Source: Nitrososphaerales archaeon
GTDB lineage: Archaea > Thermoproteota > Nitrososphaeria > Nitrososphaerales > UBA183
DNA: 6,363 bases
Assembly: GCA_030042335.1 (NCBI GenBank)
Contig: JASHZW010000075.1
Span: 1 to 6,363 of the forward strand
Reading direction: 5' to 3'
How positions within the stretch are numbered: the first letter of the stretch is position 1; each line of letters starts with the position of its first letter. The position numbers and the translations under genes are program-made. Positions 880-6,363 of the stretch are shown here, piece after piece. The notes under the pieces are model-generated. The model saw nothing but the letters and a program-made list of their open reading frames with translations, ran no database searches and was not told the origin of the DNA.

Positions 880-1377
880 TCAGAGCTCGGGGAGGGTGCG
901 AGTGAGAATCGCTGCCGATGCGCTCGCTTGGTCTATTGTGTGCTGGGTGTTGCTGCGCCTCAGTATCGCCAGCCCGAAGAGCACGATAGAACCTATCACG
1001 AAGGGTATCAGAAGCACTACCCCGAGGGCTATCGCACCGGTGGTGGCAGAGACCCTGTACCCAACGCGAAGGTTGCGGCCCTCCTGGGTCACGTAAATCC
1101 GGACCTCATCGAAGAAGTCCCTGTAAATCAGGTCCACGCCCTTCTCAAGGGGCACTCTGGGGACGAGACCCCTTCGCTTCAGTTCCTTCTCGAAGTTCGA
1201 GAGGAAGACGTCCTTGCTGTCCCCCAAGCCCTCGAAGATGGTCTCGTTGATCGAGGTGGTTATCCCTCTGTTCAGGTCTCTCGAGAAGATTACCCCGACA
1301 AGGACGATGACCGCTAGGGCGATTCCTGTGGCTACCCCGAAAAGCAACCACAGCGAGACTATAGACCCAAGCGCCAT
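880..1377 (-). CDS. Small two-helix membrane protein of unknown function
   Basis: This is a 165-residue protein I do not recognise. Residues 5-31 form a long hydrophobic segment (a membrane anchor or uncleaved signal). Residues 33-110 are a charged soluble domain, with a Lys/Arg-rich helix around 62-70 and a predicted beta segment around 92-110 (EVRIYVTQEGRNLRVGYRV). Residues 113-139 form a second transmembrane helix ending in Arg-Arg, followed by a Ser/Ala/Thr-rich tail. The central domain therefore sits between two membrane spans. The clean hydrophobic and charged blocks argue that this strand is coding rather than the overlapping forward frames, which are low-complexity mirrors of it. The gene converges on the integrase remnant and diverges from the FKBP gene. 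The ATG at 1377 is the first good start; no strong Shine-Dalgarno precedes it. No function can be assigned. Confidence 0.62.
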   Translation of the reverse strand: MALGSIVSLWLLFGVATGIALAVIVLVGVIFSRDLNRGITTSINETIFEGLGDSKDVFLSNFEKELKRRGLVPRVPLEKGVDLIYRDFFDEVRIYVTQEGRNLRVGYRVSATTGAIALGVVLLIPFVIGSIVLFGLAILRRSNTQHTIDQASASAAILTRTLPEL

Positions 1378-2308: not shown

Positions 2309-3235
2309 CTAGAGCTCCTTCAGGACAGTGGCGAGCAGGTGGATTTGTTCCCAGTCCTTGATTTCCCACGTCTGGAAGTAAATCTTCTCCACCCCCATGT
2401 CACGCAGCCGACTCACGCCCCCTGCGAACTCTCCCGTCGTGGCCACCACACACCCGCGGCTCAAGAGTTCGCGAGCGTAGACGTCCTCGTCCTTGCTCAC
2501 CCCTTGTCTTCGCATGTCCGCGCGCACCCTCGCCTTCAGACCCCTCTTGTCCTCCGCTATGATGAACTGACCCATCTTGGACACTTCGATATGTCTCTTG
2601 CTGGCATCGAGAGACTTCTTTATCTTCTCAAAATCAGCCGGAGGAGCTCCGACGAAGTTCCATTCGTCTGCGTAGGTCACGGTCTCCCGCGCTATGGAGG
2701 GCGTCTTGCCGCCTACGATCAAGTGTATCTTGCGTCCGAGAGCAGGCAATCCCTTCAGGTGCGCTGAGAAGTACTTCCCTTCGAAGTCGACCCTGCTGGT
2801 CTGCGTCAGCGGACGGATGATTTGCAGCGCCTCGTGGAATTGCTCTTTCCTTACCTTGAGAGAGGGAAACTCAAAGCCGTGGGCAAGGTATTCGTCTTCG
2901 TACCAGCCGGCACCGACTCCCAACCGAAGTCTTCCGGAGGATATCGAATCGACCGTACACGCCATCCTGGCCAGCAGCGCGGGGTTGCGGAAGCCTATCG
3001 GCGAGACCATCGGCCCGAATCTCAAAGTCTTGGTGACTGCCGCGATCGCGCCAAGGGTCGCCCAGCACTCGGGCGAGTCAAGGTTCTGCCGGCGAGAAGT
3101 TGGCAGCAGATGGTCGGAACGGAAGAGGTAGCCATAACCCATCTTCTCCACGCTCTTGGCCACATCCAGCAACTCCCTGAGGCCCATGCCTTCCTGAGGT
3201 TCGAGCATTATCCCGCAGTTCCTGATGAAGGCCAA
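2309..3235 (-). CDS. Luciferase-like (LLM class) flavin/F420-dependent oxidoreductase
   Basis: A 308-residue bacterial-luciferase-fold (TIM-barrel) oxidoreductase. Family landmarks are the N-terminal strand CGIMLEPQ (7-14), RSDHLL (39-44), the run around 71-102 (FGPMVSPIGFRNPALLA, then DSISSGR), the signature GRLRLGVGAGWYEDEY (101-116), and HLIVGGKTPSIARETVTYADEWN (171-193) near the cofactor phosphate site. In Archaea such proteins commonly use coenzyme F420, so F420 is the favoured cofactor, but FMN cannot be excluded. The substrate is unknown. The start is unusual: the best frame begins at TTG 3235, and an in-frame stop lies 9-12 bp upstream. The alternative is ATG at residue 10 (3208), but that would remove the first beta strand. 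A TATA-like box about 26 bp from a transcription start near 3240 supports TTG with a very short leader. It is the first gene of a two-gene operon with peroxiredoxin and diverges from the thermosome. Confidence 0.88.
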   Translation of the reverse strand: MAFIRNCGIMLEPQEGMGLRELLDVAKSVEKMGYGYLFRSDHLLPTSRRQNLDSPECWATLGAIAAVTKTLRFGPMVSPIGFRNPALLARMACTVDSISSGRLRLGVGAGWYEDEYLAHGFEFPSLKVRKEQFHEALQIIRPLTQTSRVDFEGKYFSAHLKGLPALGRKIHLIVGGKTPSIARETVTYADEWNFVGAPPADFEKIKKSLDASKRHIEVSKMGQFIIAEDKRGLKARVRADMRRQGVSKDEDVYARELLSRGCVVATTGEFAGGVSRLRDMGVEKIYFQTWEIKDWEQIHLLATVLKEL

Positions 3236-3260
3236 GTAGCACAGCTACCCGAATCCAGCC

Positions 3261-3270
3261 ATAATAATCT
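3261..3270 (-). promoter_or_regulatory. TATA box for the oxidoreductase-peroxiredoxin operon
   Basis: Read on the minus strand, the sequence is AGATTATTAT, the most AT-rich decamer on that side of the intergenic region. Its centre near 3265 predicts a transcription start near 3239-3240, only a few bases before the TTG at 3235. That fits the near-leaderless transcripts common in Archaea. The spacing rule is established; the specific start is inferred. Confidence 0.5.
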
Positions 3271-3317
3271 AGTGTAGAGTCTATCGCGTGAGCCATCGCG
3301 TGGCACGAACAAAAATC

Positions 3318-3324
3318 ATATATA
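3318..3324 (+). promoter_or_regulatory. TATA box of the thermosome promoter
   Basis: ATATATA is preceded by a purine-rich stretch (GAACAAAAAT, 3308-3317) at the place expected for the TFB recognition element. Its centre at 3321 predicts transcription from about 3347 and a leader of roughly 12 nt before the ATG at 3359. This is a strong archaeal core promoter, as expected for an abundant chaperonin. Confidence 0.68.
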
Positions 3325-3341
3325 CAACTCGAAGTTGTATA
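3321..3341. promoter_or_regulatory. Perfect 9+9 bp palindrome, candidate operator of the thermosome gene
   Basis: The arms TATACAACT (3321-3329) and AGTTGTATA (3333-3341) are exact inverted complements separated by CGA. The left arm overlaps the last four bases of the TATA box, and the right arm ends about 6 bp before the predicted transcription start. A protein dimer bound here would block TATA-binding protein/TFB or polymerase. Because it lies mostly upstream of the predicted RNA start, a DNA operator is more likely than an RNA hairpin. Repressors acting in this position are known for archaeal heat-shock genes (for example Phr), but the motif does not let me name the regulator. Confidence 0.6.
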
Positions 3342-3358
3342 GCTGACGCGAATTATTT

Positions 3359-5011
3359 ATGTCAAGTAGCCCGCAGTACATTATTCTAAAGGAAGGCACG
3401 GCGGAGTCAAAGGGAAGGGAGGCACAGAGGAACAACATCCAAGCTGCAAAGCTCATCTCGGAGATTGTCAGAACATCTCTCGGTCCCCGTGGCATGGACA
3501 AGATGCTCGTCGACTCGCTCGGTGATGTAACCATCACCAACGACGGAGCGACCATGCTCAAGGAGATCGATGTCCAGCATCCCGCTGCCAAGATGCTCGT
3601 GGAGGTATCCAAGGCCACCGACAACGAGGTGGGTGATGGAACCACATCAGCAGTAATCCTCGCGGGTGCTCTGCTCGAGAAGGCAGAGGAGCTCATCAGC
3701 AAGGACGTCCATCCCACCGTCGTCGTGGATGGTTACATGAAGGCGCTGGAAAAGTCGCAACAGGTTCTCGAGAAGATTGCCGAGAAGGTAGACCCATCCT
3801 CCAAGGCGGACCTACTCAAGGTAGCCACTACCAGCATGATGACGAAGCTCGTCTCGGACGACGCCCCTCATCTCGCCGAGCTCGTGGTCGACGCGGTGAC
3901 CCAGGTTGCAGAGCAGACCGAGACCGGCTACAAGGTCGACATTGACAATGTAAAGGTAGAGAAGAAGGCTGGCGGTTCGATGATTGACACCAAGCTCATC
4001 ACTGGAATCGCCCTCGACAAGGAGGTCGTCCACTCGGCGATGCCGAAGAGGATTGACGGGGCCAAGATTGCTCTCATCAACTCGCCACTCGAGATCGAGA
4101 AGACCGAGTTCAGCGCAGAGATTAGGATAAGCGATCCGGACCAGATGCAGAAGTTCCTAGACGAGGAGAACAGCATCCTGAAGGGCATGGTCGAGAAGAT
4201 TGAGGAGTCGGGCGCAAACGTTGTAATATGCCAGAAAGGCATCGATGATGTCGCACAGCACTACCTCGCTAGGGCCGGTGTCCTCGCGGTGAGGCGTGTC
4301 AAGGAGAGCGACATGACAAAGCTCGCCAAGGCGACAGGAGCGCGAATCGTCACGAACTTGGATGATCTTAGCGCCAAGGACCTCGGGTCGGCAAAACTCG
4401 CCGAGGAGAGGAAGGTCGAGGAAGACAAGTGGGTCTTCATCGAGGGAGCGAAGAATCCAAAGGCGGTTACCATCCTGGTAAGAGGAGGCTCGCAGAGGGT
4501 CGTCGACGAAGCCGAACGCTCGCTTCACGACGCGCTGATGGTGACGAAGGATGTCGTCGAGATTCCTTCGATCGTCGCAGGTGGTGGTGCGCCCGAGGTC
4601 GAGATTGCTAGCAAGGTCAGGGAATGGGCTCAGAAGCTCACAGGAAGGGAGCAGCTCGCGGCTCTCCGGTACGCTGATGCGGTAGAGAGCATCGCAACCA
4701 TTCTTGCCGAGAATGCAGGCATGGATCCCATCGACACACAGGTCGACCTGAGGGCGAGGCACGGCAAGGGCGAGAAGTGGGCCGGAGTCGATGCGCTCTC
4801 GGGCAAGGTCGCTAACATGTGGGGCAAGAACGTCATCGAGCCGATGGCTGTGAAGACCCAGATCCTGAAGGCCGCGACCGAATCCGCGAGCATGATTCTG
4901 CGCATCGACGATGTCATAGCCTCGAGCAAGACAAAGGAGGTGCCCGCCGGCGCAGGAGGGCCCGGCGGACCCGGAGGCATGGGAGGAATGGGCGGCATGG
5001 GCGGGATGTAG
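3359..5011 (+). CDS. Thermosome subunit (group II chaperonin)
   Basis: A full-length 550-residue archaeal chaperonin subunit. It assembles into a double-ring ATP-driven folding chamber with a built-in lid in the cytoplasm. The equatorial domain (about 1-145 and 400-525) shows LGPRGMDKML (41-50), the ATP-site loop NDGATML (61-67, Asp62) and GDGTTS (92-97, Asp93). The intermediate domain carries the conserved HDAL with Asp391, which in relatives helps activate water for ATP hydrolysis, and GGGAPE (408-413). The apical domain (about 215-365) carries the lid segment around 245-275. The C-terminus ends in GGP and GGM repeats projecting into the cavity. ATG 3359 is preceded by a good TATA box at suitable distance and by a palindrome likely to control expression; no Shine-Dalgarno is needed with the short leader. 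No second subunit gene is present in the window. Every catalytic residue I checked is present. Confidence 0.98.
   Translation: MSSSPQYIILKEGTAESKGREAQRNNIQAAKLISEIVRTSLGPRGMDKMLVDSLGDVTITNDGATMLKEIDVQHPAAKMLVEVSKATDNEVGDGTTSAVILAGALLEKAEELISKDVHPTVVVDGYMKALEKSQQVLEKIAEKVDPSSKADLLKVATTSMMTKLVSDDAPHLAELVVDAVTQVAEQTETGYKVDIDNVKVEKKAGGSMIDTKLITGIALDKEVVHSAMPKRIDGAKIALINSPLEIEKTEFSAEIRISDPDQMQKFLDEENSILKGMVEKIEESGANVVICQKGIDDVAQHYLARAGVLAVRRVKESDMTKLAKATGARIVTNLDDLSAKDLGSAKLAEERKVEEDKWVFIEGAKNPKAVTILVRGGSQRVVDEAERSLHDALMVTKDVVEIPSIVAGGGAPEVEIASKVREWAQKLTGREQLAALRYADAVESIATILAENAGMDPIDTQVDLRARHGKGEKWAGVDALSGKVANMWGKNVIEPMAVKTQILKAATESASMILRIDDVIASSKTKEVPAGAGGPGGPGGMGGMGGMGGM
4973..5008 (+). repeat. 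Four tandem Gly-Gly-Met codon repeats at the thermosome C-terminus
   Basis: Four consecutive 9-base units encode Gly-Gly-Met (residues 539-550) immediately before the stop codon. Two Gly-Gly-Pro units precede them. The units differ at glycine third positions (GGA, GGC, GGG), so selection on the peptide rather than recent DNA slippage probably maintains them. Similar flexible Gly/Met tails occur in GroEL and several archaeal chaperonins and line the cavity floor. Confidence 0.85.
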
Positions 5012-5150: not shown

Positions 5151-5567
5151 ATGACTCTGTCGATAGCAAAGCGCGTACTCGAGGAGATACACACTCACGC
5201 GGAGTCGACCTACCCGGAGGAGTGCTGCGGATTGCTAATCTCGGACAGGTCTAAGCACGTGACGGAATCCATCAGGATGAAAAACGCTTACGAGGGGCCG
5301 AAGCATGATCGCTATAACATCGACCCTCTGGAACTGTTCAGAGCCGACCGGACCAGCGCACAAAAGGGTCTCACGATAGCAGGCATATACCACTCCCACC
5401 CGGACTATCCGGCGACGCTGTCGAAGTTCGATACCGATCACTCTTTTCCATGGTACTCCTACCTCGTGGTCTCCGTACCTAAAGGTAAGGCCGGGGACAC
5501 CAGGGCCTGGATACCGAAGGAAGACAGGACGTCGGCCACTGAGGAGACGGTGGAGGTCTTCGGGTGA
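5151..5567 (+). CDS. JAMM/MPN+ metalloprotease, Mec-like (ubiquitin-like protein processing)
   Basis: A 138-residue single-domain JAMM zinc protease with an intact active site: Glu24 in PEECCG, then the zinc motif H-S-H-x7-S-x2-D at His81, His83, Ser91 and Asp94. Such enzymes cut the bond after the C-terminal Gly-Gly of ubiquitin-fold proteins. The closest familiar relative by eye is mycobacterial Mec, which releases cysteine from the sulfur carrier CysO; archaeal desampylases (HvJAMM1) have the same fold. The partner supports this reading, because the next gene begins 5 bp after this stop and encodes a CysO-like domain fused to its E1. The Shine-Dalgarno for that gene overlaps this stop codon, so the two are translationally coupled. 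ATG 5151 gives the usual short N-terminal helix; only a weak GAGAA precedes it. Whether its substrate is CysO-cysteine, the fusion linker or protein conjugates cannot be read from the sequence. Confidence 0.92.
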   Translation: MTLSIAKRVLEEIHTHAESTYPEECCGLLISDRSKHVTESIRMKNAYEGPKHDRYNIDPLELFRADRTSAQKGLTIAGIYHSHPDYPATLSKFDTDHSFPWYSYLVVSVPKGKAGDTRAWIPKEDRTSATEETVEVFG

Positions 5568-5572: not shown

Positions 5573-6363
5573 ATGGCGGTCAAGATAATCATACCGACCG
5601 CTCTGCGGCAGCACACGAACAACGAGGACGAGCTCCAGCTGAGCGCGCGCGACGTGAAGGGAGCGCTGCAGGAGCTGATCGTCGCCTTCCCCGGGCTCAA
5701 ACGGTATCTATACTCCGACAACGGAAGGCTCCGCAACTTCATCAACATCTACCTCAACGAGGAGGACATCCGCTACATGAAGGGAGAGGAGACCCCGCTT
5801 TCCGACGGGGATACCCTGATGATAGTCCCGTCAGTGGCAGGAGGGTCGAGGCGGCCCGACCCGCACAACGTCAGCCTGTCGAGCAGTGAGTTCGCACGTT
5901 ACAGCCGGCACCTGATAATGCCCGAGGTAGGCATGGAAGGTCAAAAGGCGATAAAGGCGTCGAGCGTCCTGATAATAGGCGCAGGGGGGCTGGGGACACC
6001 CTCCGCGACCTATCTCGCGGCCGCAGGCGTCGGCAGGATAGGCATCGTCGACTTTGACACCATCGAGAAGAGCAACCTCCACCGGCAGATACTGTACTCG
6101 GAGCAGGACGTGGGGAAGAGCAAGGCAGAGGTTGCCAAGGAACGCCTGCAGCAGGTAAACCCGAACATCAGCATCGAACTCCACAAGGTCCATCTCGACT
6201 CTTCTAACGCGCTGGAGATCCTGAAGAACTACGACATCATCATGGACGGTACAGACAACTTCCCCACCCGTTATCTCGTGAACGACGCCTGTGTGCTCCT
6301 CGGCAAACCCAACGTTTACGCGAGCATTTTCAGATTCGAGGGTCAAGCCTCAGTGTTCTTCGC
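5573..6363 (+). CDS. CysO/MoaD-like sulfur carrier fused to MoeZ/MoeB/ThiF-type E1 enzyme, 3'-partial
   Basis: The frame is open for 263 residues to the window end. Residues 1-91 form a ubiquitin-fold sulfur carrier that closely resembles mycobacterial CysO: IPTALRQHT near the start, FINIYLNEEDIRY (56-68), LSDGDTLMIVPSVAGG (76-91), with Gly90-Gly91 at the position of the usual C-terminus. A linker of about 14 residues (SRRPDPHN and on) leads into an E1-like domain: FARYSRHLIMPEVG (107-120), nucleotide loop GAGGLG (136-141), acidic D160/D162, SNLHRQ (167-172, Asn168 and Arg171), Lys182, and DGTDN (225-229). E1 enzymes adenylate the carrier's C-terminal glycine so that it can receive sulfur. 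The zinc-binding cysteines, catalytic cysteine and any rhodanese domain lie beyond the window. The start is ATG 5573, supported by GGTGA. In bacteria these two parts are normally separate proteins. The fusion hides the Gly-Gly, so it implies cleavage or in-cis use. Confidence 0.93.
   Translation, partial: MAVKIIIPTALRQHTNNEDELQLSARDVKGALQELIVAFPGLKRYLYSDNGRLRNFINIYLNEEDIRYMKGEETPLSDGDTLMIVPSVAGGSRRPDPHNVSLSSSEFARYSRHLIMPEVGMEGQKAIKASSVLIIGAGGLGTPSATYLAAAGVGRIGIVDFDTIEKSNLHRQILYSEQDVGKSKAEVAKERLQQVNPNISIELHKVHLDSSNALEILKNYDIIMDGTDNFPTRYLVNDACVLLGKPNVYASIFRFEGQASVFF

Follow-up and report, generated by a model that had tools for sequence, protein, structure and literature searches.

A sulfur carrier translated as one chain with an E1 enzyme in a Nitrososphaerales archaeon, and a neighbouring JAMM protease gene that may release it

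A sulfur carrier and a MoeB/ThiF/Uba4-type E1 enzyme are encoded as a single chain in a Nitrososphaerales archaeon, within a stretch of 6,363 nucleotides referred to below as the window, and the Gly-Gly that closes the carrier is buried at the junction. A JAMM metalloprotease gene lies directly upstream. We consider it likely that this protease uncaps the carrier by cutting after Gly91, that the E1 and a rhodanese domain then load the carrier with sulfur, and that a partner PLP enzyme makes use of it. Among the explanations offered in a preliminary description of this DNA, cleavage by a protease is the best supported, and it is strengthened by the adjoining JAMM gene; the cut is one that we infer.

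The fused gene occupies positions 5573-6363 of the plus strand, as one open reading frame that runs without interruption from the ATG at 5573 to the window end. Residues 1-91 (5573-5845, +) form a ThiS/CysO-like beta-grasp sulfur carrier domain ending VPSVAGG, recognised over residues 6-91 by the Pfam model ThiS (PF02597; 5.1e-11, 43.4 bits against a cut-off of 22.5). The solved chain 4n6e_B aligns to residues 1-91 (2.2e-16), and 3dwg_C, which we take to be CysO (the entry name there is cfp10A), to residues 2-91 (7.3e-16); both chains end at the Gly-Gly. In the window the two glycines, G90 (GGA, 5840-5842) and G91 (GGG, 5843-5845), close the carrier domain and the frame runs on into the E1; as translated, this carrier has no free C-terminal glycine carboxylate.

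The E1 adenylyltransferase domain (5882-6363, +) is cut off by the window end. ThiF (PF00899) matches its residues 110-262 (8.8e-62), and solved chains found with it were 6yub_B (Uba4, 7.8e-42) and 1jw9_B (MoeB, 1.2e-34). The closest relative among the best 80 loci presented below, L001, is 96% identical across all 263 window residues. Its chain of 475 residues matches ThiF at 2.2e-86 and extends past the E1 into a C-terminal rhodanese (PF00581, 8.4e-19). The open reading frame, the Pfam matches and L001 thus bear out the claim first made for this gene, that one frame joins a carrier ending in VAGG (residues 88-91) to an E1 domain. The frame of 263 residues does not, however, hold the complete E1, since the window truncates it, and L001 adds the rhodanese. 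With family models, L001 scored below the MoeZ equivalog NF005902 (484.8 bits, curated cut-off 647) and above the MoeB model NF006444 (458.3 bits, cut-off 449). Past the window end, in L001 numbering, cysteines C269, C272, C286, C343 and C346 are each conserved at 0.98 and C433 at 0.97 across 61 fused relatives; zinc, E1 catalytic-type and rhodanese roles are presumably shared out among them.

Relatives were collected by a contig scan of genomes, which gave 330 confirmed stretches, and the best 80 loci were retained. These span archaea and several bacterial phyla, according to record titles. Carrier and E1 lie in one frame in 61 of the 80 and are split in the other 19, a ratio that overstates the frequency of fusion because the search started from a fused sequence and ranked the loci by match. 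In a tree of 81 rows, a supported clade unites the window with the Nitrososphaerota loci L001-L004. Acidobacteriota make up most of the bacterial rows, and the others belong to Bacteroidota, Ignavibacteriota, Gemmatimonadota, Chloroflexota, Elusimicrobiota and Omnitrophota, with one Actinomycetota and one Pseudomonadota record. The gene has likely been transferred between archaea and bacteria, in one direction or the other.

One of the loci is peculiar: in L005 (5310-6854) the E1 half is 90% DNA-identical to the acidobacterial L061 up to the contig end, and the carrier half is archaeal. L005 is likely a chimeric contig, the alternative being recombination inside the gene. It is counted among the 61; without it, 60 of 79 loci are fused. 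On a quick tree, the number of changes between the fused and the split state was 6 with L005 (3 of them forced by well-supported branches) and 5 without it (2 forced). Splits probably arose more than once, and how many were independent is uncertain, because the counts shift with L005 and few changes are forced.

The codon right after the second glycine, TCG (5846-5848), is indeed one substitution from the stop TAG, as had been pointed out, and it had been suggested from this that the fusion could have arisen by loss of a stop codon in this genome or by a base error. Chance or base error is excluded, because L001 matches the 263 residues at 96% and 61 of the 80 loci are single-frame; moreover, the codon after the Gly-Gly is one substitution from a stop in only 6 of the 61 fused relatives. 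We therefore reject stop loss or sequencing error, which the fused relatives rule out and to which we give practically no chance. What the relatives share is the fusion (61/80); neither the linker nor the residue that follows the Gly-Gly is constant among them.

The junction itself is strongly conserved. Ala89-Gly90-Gly91 (5837-5845, +), after which the JAMM cut is predicted, is identical in 61/61 fused relatives (60/60 without L005). The linker that follows, residues 92-103 (5846-5881, +), starts with the TCG codon of S92 and is variable: mean modal identity over the 61 relatives is 0.43 in the linker (gaps excluded), compared to 1.00 for AGG, 0.66 for the carrier and 0.82 for the E1. The first residue after the Gly-Gly is A in 25 relatives, S in 20, V in 5, N in 4, I in 3, R in 2, and M and D in 1 each. 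In a protein search that scored 8000 sequences, the 120 listed all keep the Gly-Gly as well (119 recognised by pattern, and P0030 by eye). Since the Gly-Gly is conserved while the linker drifts, we concluded that the Gly-Gly is used.

Use of the Gly-Gly may take more than one form. If the two glycines must fit the E1 site, the same conservation is expected of a fused domain that is never cut, and that would serve as a fixed docking or pseudo-substrate module regulating the E1, with other carriers loaded in trans. Such a module fits poorly with the spacing between the Gly-Gly and the conserved RYSRH, which ranges from 12 to 45 residues (median 18). An AlphaFold2 model of L001 (27 sequences; mean pLDDT 84.9, pTM 0.63), whose best Foldseek matches were Uba4, ThiF and MoeB, also speaks against it: the Gly-Gly and linker are disordered in the model rather than docked, with the reserve that, at this pTM, the arrangement of the domains with respect to one another is unreliable. 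Model confidence falls under 50 at residues 88-96 and 114-118. Because of the low values at 88-96, the Gly91 bond is probably exposed, and the Gly-Gly and linker are probably flexible and reachable.

The statement in the preliminary description that no suitable internal start lies near the junction is not entirely accurate. ATG 5819 (M83) and GTG 5834 (V88) are in frame just before the Gly-Gly, and ATG 5918 (M116) is in frame at the E1 start. Initiation at these codons could yield a separate E1, in which case both fused and free enzyme would come from one gene, and M116 is present in 61/61 fused relatives. M83 and V88, however, are each found in only 7 of the 61, and the conservation of M116 needs no start to explain it, since this residue is part of HLIMPEVG, an invariant block of the E1. 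Moreover, none of these starts can free the carrier. We regard internal initiation as very improbable.

The JAMM gene was missing from the coordinates of the preliminary description, which had overlooked it. It is found at 5151-5567 (+) and encodes a JAMM/MPN+ (Prok-JAB) metalloprotease of 138 aa (PF14464, 2.6e-21; PF01398, 1.6e-6); its stop, TGA 5565-5567, lies 5 bases ahead of the fusion ATG at 5573. The metal site is intact, with the motif HSHPDYPATLSKFD (H-S-H-x7-S-x2-D) at residues 81-94 and ECCG at 24-27. The nearest solved chains are 2kcq_A (3.6e-18) and JAMM1 5lda_A (2.9e-6), and the score with the NCBIfam desampylase model NF041370, 62.8 bits, is below the cut-off of 130. A same-strand JAMM gene was found upstream in 74 of the best 80 loci, with HxH-x7-S-x2-D kept in 74/74 and the E-x-C-G pattern in 65/74. 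Among the 6 loci that lack it, L016, L022 and L045 begin within 0.7 kb of a contig end; for L031, L061 and L079, no JAMM gene was found in the fetched flanks, though flanking sequence is present. Five of these 6 genomes carry an above-cut-off JAMM elsewhere, and the L016 genome a sub-cut-off match only.

The strongest doubt about uncapping comes from a known JAMM protein. Mec+ hydrolyses CysO-cysteine, thereby releasing cysteine, and MoeZR loads CysO, as described in the part of PMC3227635 that concerns us here. A JAMM neighbour taken alone does not imply uncapping, because the Mec+ role needs a JAMM though CysO already ends at Gly-Gly. In other words, JAMM neighbours are expected for amino-acid release alone, CysO natively ending at Gly-Gly.

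Upstream of the JAMM gene, a group II chaperonin (thermosome) subunit gene occupies 3359-5011 (+; PF00118, 1.3e-185). L001 has the same order, with the same chaperonin start as judged by eye (2785-4437), then the JAMM gene, then the fusion. We do not take the chaperonin to be part of the pathway. Two further frames were seen in the window. The one at 2-733 is open and weakly matches phage integrase (25.9 bits, cut-off 27.1), and is perhaps an integrase remnant. The other, a 165-aa frame at 880-1377 (-), gave no Pfam match at 0.001; a similar frame is seen by eye in L001 at 294-833, and its hydrophobic start suggests a membrane protein.

The split loci are informative, as their carriers might have ended at the Gly-Gly. 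None does: in the draft assemblies, where tails were read from stop to stop, all 19 run 1-35 residues past it (for instance R in L065 and TA in L007, and KS, IF and FV in others). The tail of L049 was set at 15 by eye, from the first AGG, the script having measured from the second. JAMM neighbours were found in 17 of the 19 split loci, and JAMM together with PALP in 13. In 12 genomes of our choosing, ThiS-family matches numbered 40, of which 12 were the loci's own. Inspected by eye, the other 28 comprise 17 proteins that end exactly at Gly-Gly, 8 with tails and 3 MoaD-MoaE fusions. Tails are thus present in 19/19 split carriers versus 8/25 unfused paralogs (Fisher p = 1.6e-6, kinship ignored). 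A stop arising in the linker would leave a tail regardless of later removal; still, splits never result in a free Gly-Gly, unlike most paralogs.

No carrier in the best 80 loci, fused or split, is translated with a free Gly-Gly. Because 0/80 carriers end at the Gly-Gly as translated, yet it is kept in 61/61 fused and 19/19 split members, the balance tips to uncapping. The split loci also weigh against a fixed module. As 19 of the 80 carriers are separate, with the same Gly-Gly and mostly the same neighbours, covalent attachment is dispensable. Two observations remain on the side of a module loading other carriers in trans: another CysO-like carrier occurs in 5 of the 12 genomes, and row 1 of Table 1 in PMC1779556 lists ThiS-ThiF fusions with a second, solo ThiS-like protein in the operon. 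On the whole, we find the uncut module unlikely.

The second carriers also bear on the idea that the chemistry falls to a separate free carrier, the fused one being a relic. Six proteins score at least 42 bits against the window carrier: L082, L087, L091, L099, L135 and L137, in genomes G002, G005, G006, G010 and G011. Three of them, L082 (G002), L091 (G006) and L099 (G010), are free CysO-like carriers that end exactly at Gly-Gly and count in favour of this idea; L087, L135 and L137 are tailed. A relic, however, would lose its Gly-Gly, and all 61 fused relatives keep it. Moreover, no second carrier above 13 bits was found in 7 of the 12 genomes (G001, G003, G004, G007, G008, G009 and G012, whose assemblies may be incomplete). 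In G001, the genome of L001, the sole other ThiS-family match, L081, ends HGG and reaches 6 bits to the window carrier. A relic appears to us more improbable still than an uncut module.

Other ThiS-family proteins in these genomes deserve mention on their own account. L097, L136 and L139, outside the studied loci, are stand-alone ThiS-like carriers that run 7-27 residues past their final glycines. L096, L098 and L138 are MoaD-MoaE fusions (Pfam ThiS and MoaE) with a buried Gly-Gly; their genomes also have a carrier linked to a JAMM, and a single JAMM could act on the two.

The pathway that we propose, with uncapping by the JAMM protease, would run as follows. The gene product would be a precursor made of sulfur carrier, linker, E1 and, judging by L001, rhodanese. 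The JAMM protein encoded one gene upstream would cut after Gly91, leaving a carrier with a free Gly-Gly carboxylate. The E1 would adenylate the terminal glycine, and the rhodanese cysteine would give the sulfur for a carrier thiocarboxylate. This thiocarboxylate would be used by the partner PLP enzyme, a cysteine-synthase-like PALP in most bacterial loci and in L025, and, in the archaeal loci nearest to the window, a member of the cystathionine-gamma-synthase family (Cys/Met PLP); the product would be cysteine, or possibly homocysteine in these archaea. The JAMM may also have a second role, freeing the amino acid that the carrier bears, in the way that Mec+ acts on CysO.

The window ends too soon to include a partner gene, and such genes were traced in the relatives. 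Relatives of the L025 PALP are found in 65 of the best 80 loci, and relatives of the L001 PF01053 protein in 7. The PF01053 frame begins 17-53 bases after the fusion in L001, L002 and L003, with no PALP in the fetched stretch; the two PF01053 proteins scanned, those of L001 and L002, pass the cystathionine gamma-synthase family model NF006347. The remaining 4 of the 7 matches are weaker and lie 2-3.5 kb upstream, in bacterial loci. Gene order is PF01053, JAMM, fusion in L102, an archaeal fused locus, and in L025 it is PALP (cysteine-synthase-like, 330.6 bits, model cut-off 344.15), JAMM, fusion. Cysteine-synthase-like genes exist elsewhere in the L001-L004 genomes; 3 of the 5 genomes searched pass the cut-off, and that of L001 reaches 334.2. 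Because of these genes, the role of the PF01053 partner may lie in homocysteine synthesis and not in that of cysteine.

If the JAMM does uncap the carrier, carrier and E1 would be supplied in equal amounts and remain inactive until the cut. This would amount to a zymogen-like control of sulfur metabolism common to archaea and bacteria, parallel to ubiquitin-precursor processing. A bolder version holds that the carrier is always born capped throughout the family, in fused and split members alike, JAMM cleavage being an obligatory gate on a carrier-bound route to sulfur amino acids, and that the Nitrososphaerales branch switched partner, from a cysteine synthase to an enzyme of the cystathionine-gamma-synthase family, and makes homocysteine from a protein thiocarboxylate. 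We put this forward tentatively, at somewhat less than an even chance.

The class to which L001 belongs was scanned more widely, in 150 genomes. A match was present in 137 of them, and at least 93 of the 150 are fused; a match was scored as fused when its row ran from residue 45 or before to residue 340 or beyond, rows being counted by eye, and G098 was added, as its two pieces are in the same frame. JAMM was found in 141. None of the 9 JAMM-less genomes falls within the at least 93 fused among the matches listed (p = 1e-4), an association to which we attach little importance, since nearly all related genomes have both traits.

Most of these class matches are a distinct form, 35-40% identical to L001 in the 26 loci fetched (L105-L130), which we take to be ammonia-oxidiser-type fusions. 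Their match to L001 ends before the rhodanese part, and Pfam found no rhodanese in the three loci scanned, L105, L119 and L124; in L105 a TBP match lay below the cut-off. PAVAGG is present at the junction of all 26, and the next residue is A or S. In the 3.4-4.2 kb fetched for each, no gene related to the window JAMM was found. A weak PALP match was present in 21 of the 26, and the one scanned, L119:236-1483, is a threonine synthase. With a PALP gene so often beside this Ubl-E1 gene, a link between carrier sulfur and phosphohomoserine chemistry is conceivable. The distinct form fits the Ubl-E1-TBP fusion of Makarova and Koonin, as outlined in PMC2948915.

The background to such systems includes HcyS/HcyD/MetY of Wolinella, QbsE/QbsD and the work of Burroughs et al. 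2009. Section 3.3 of PMC2948915 reported in 2010 a Ubl-E1 fusion common to bacteria and Thaumarchaeota. In the Ubl-E1-TBP fusions presented there, which come from the same archaeal class, a ubiquitin-like carrier precedes a MoeB/ThiF E1 in one chain, as it does in the window. Iyer et al. 2006 (PMC1779556), in the pages relevant here, propose that carriers joined to other proteins are released by JAB. Both the architecture and the idea of processing have thus been published, and novelty is modest for this reason. The suggestion that novelty rested on a CysO/MoeZ pairing in an archaeon proved weak, since the fusion recurs in bacteria, soil bacteria among them, and Ubl-E1 was published in 2010. 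Searches of titles and abstract openings, in which subscription journals are thinly covered, returned no experimental study of such a carrier-E1 fusion; nor did searches of this kind return the always-capped pattern of fused and split members.

The closest operon is in row 4c of Table 1 in PMC1779556, which has the same four parts, ThiS/MoaD, E1-rhodanese, JAB and cysteine synthase, and includes Acidobacteria (Susi). The entry in that row notes an E1-rhodanese fusion, without a carrier fused to it. The three archaeal loci nearest the window differ from the row 4c operon in having a Cys/Met PLP neighbour, and no PALP in the fetched stretch. The mycobacterial CysO-MoeZR-CysM-Mec+ pathway, in the outline given by PMC3227635, resembles the present one in its carrier, homologous nearly end to end, its E1 and rhodanese, its JAMM and its PALP; in that pathway, however, the carrier is a protein apart from the E1, and its solved chain ends at Gly-Gly.

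Cleavage of a carrier from a fusion has precedents. MoaX is cut at Gly82-Ser83, and the cut is needed, according to the sections of PMC4326299 drawn on here, which leave the protease unnamed. In the account given by PMC8832034, DRJAMM cuts a MoaD-MoaE fusion and leaves a C-terminal Gly, and linear SAMP1 fusions are cut by HvJAMM1. Like the window protein, the DRJAMM substrate and MoaX, as these two sources present them, have a buried Gly-Gly; these two are cut after the second Gly, as their function requires, at the position predicted here for the archaeal carrier. The partner in these MoaD-MoaE fusions, however, is MoaE and not an E1, and the pathway is a different one.
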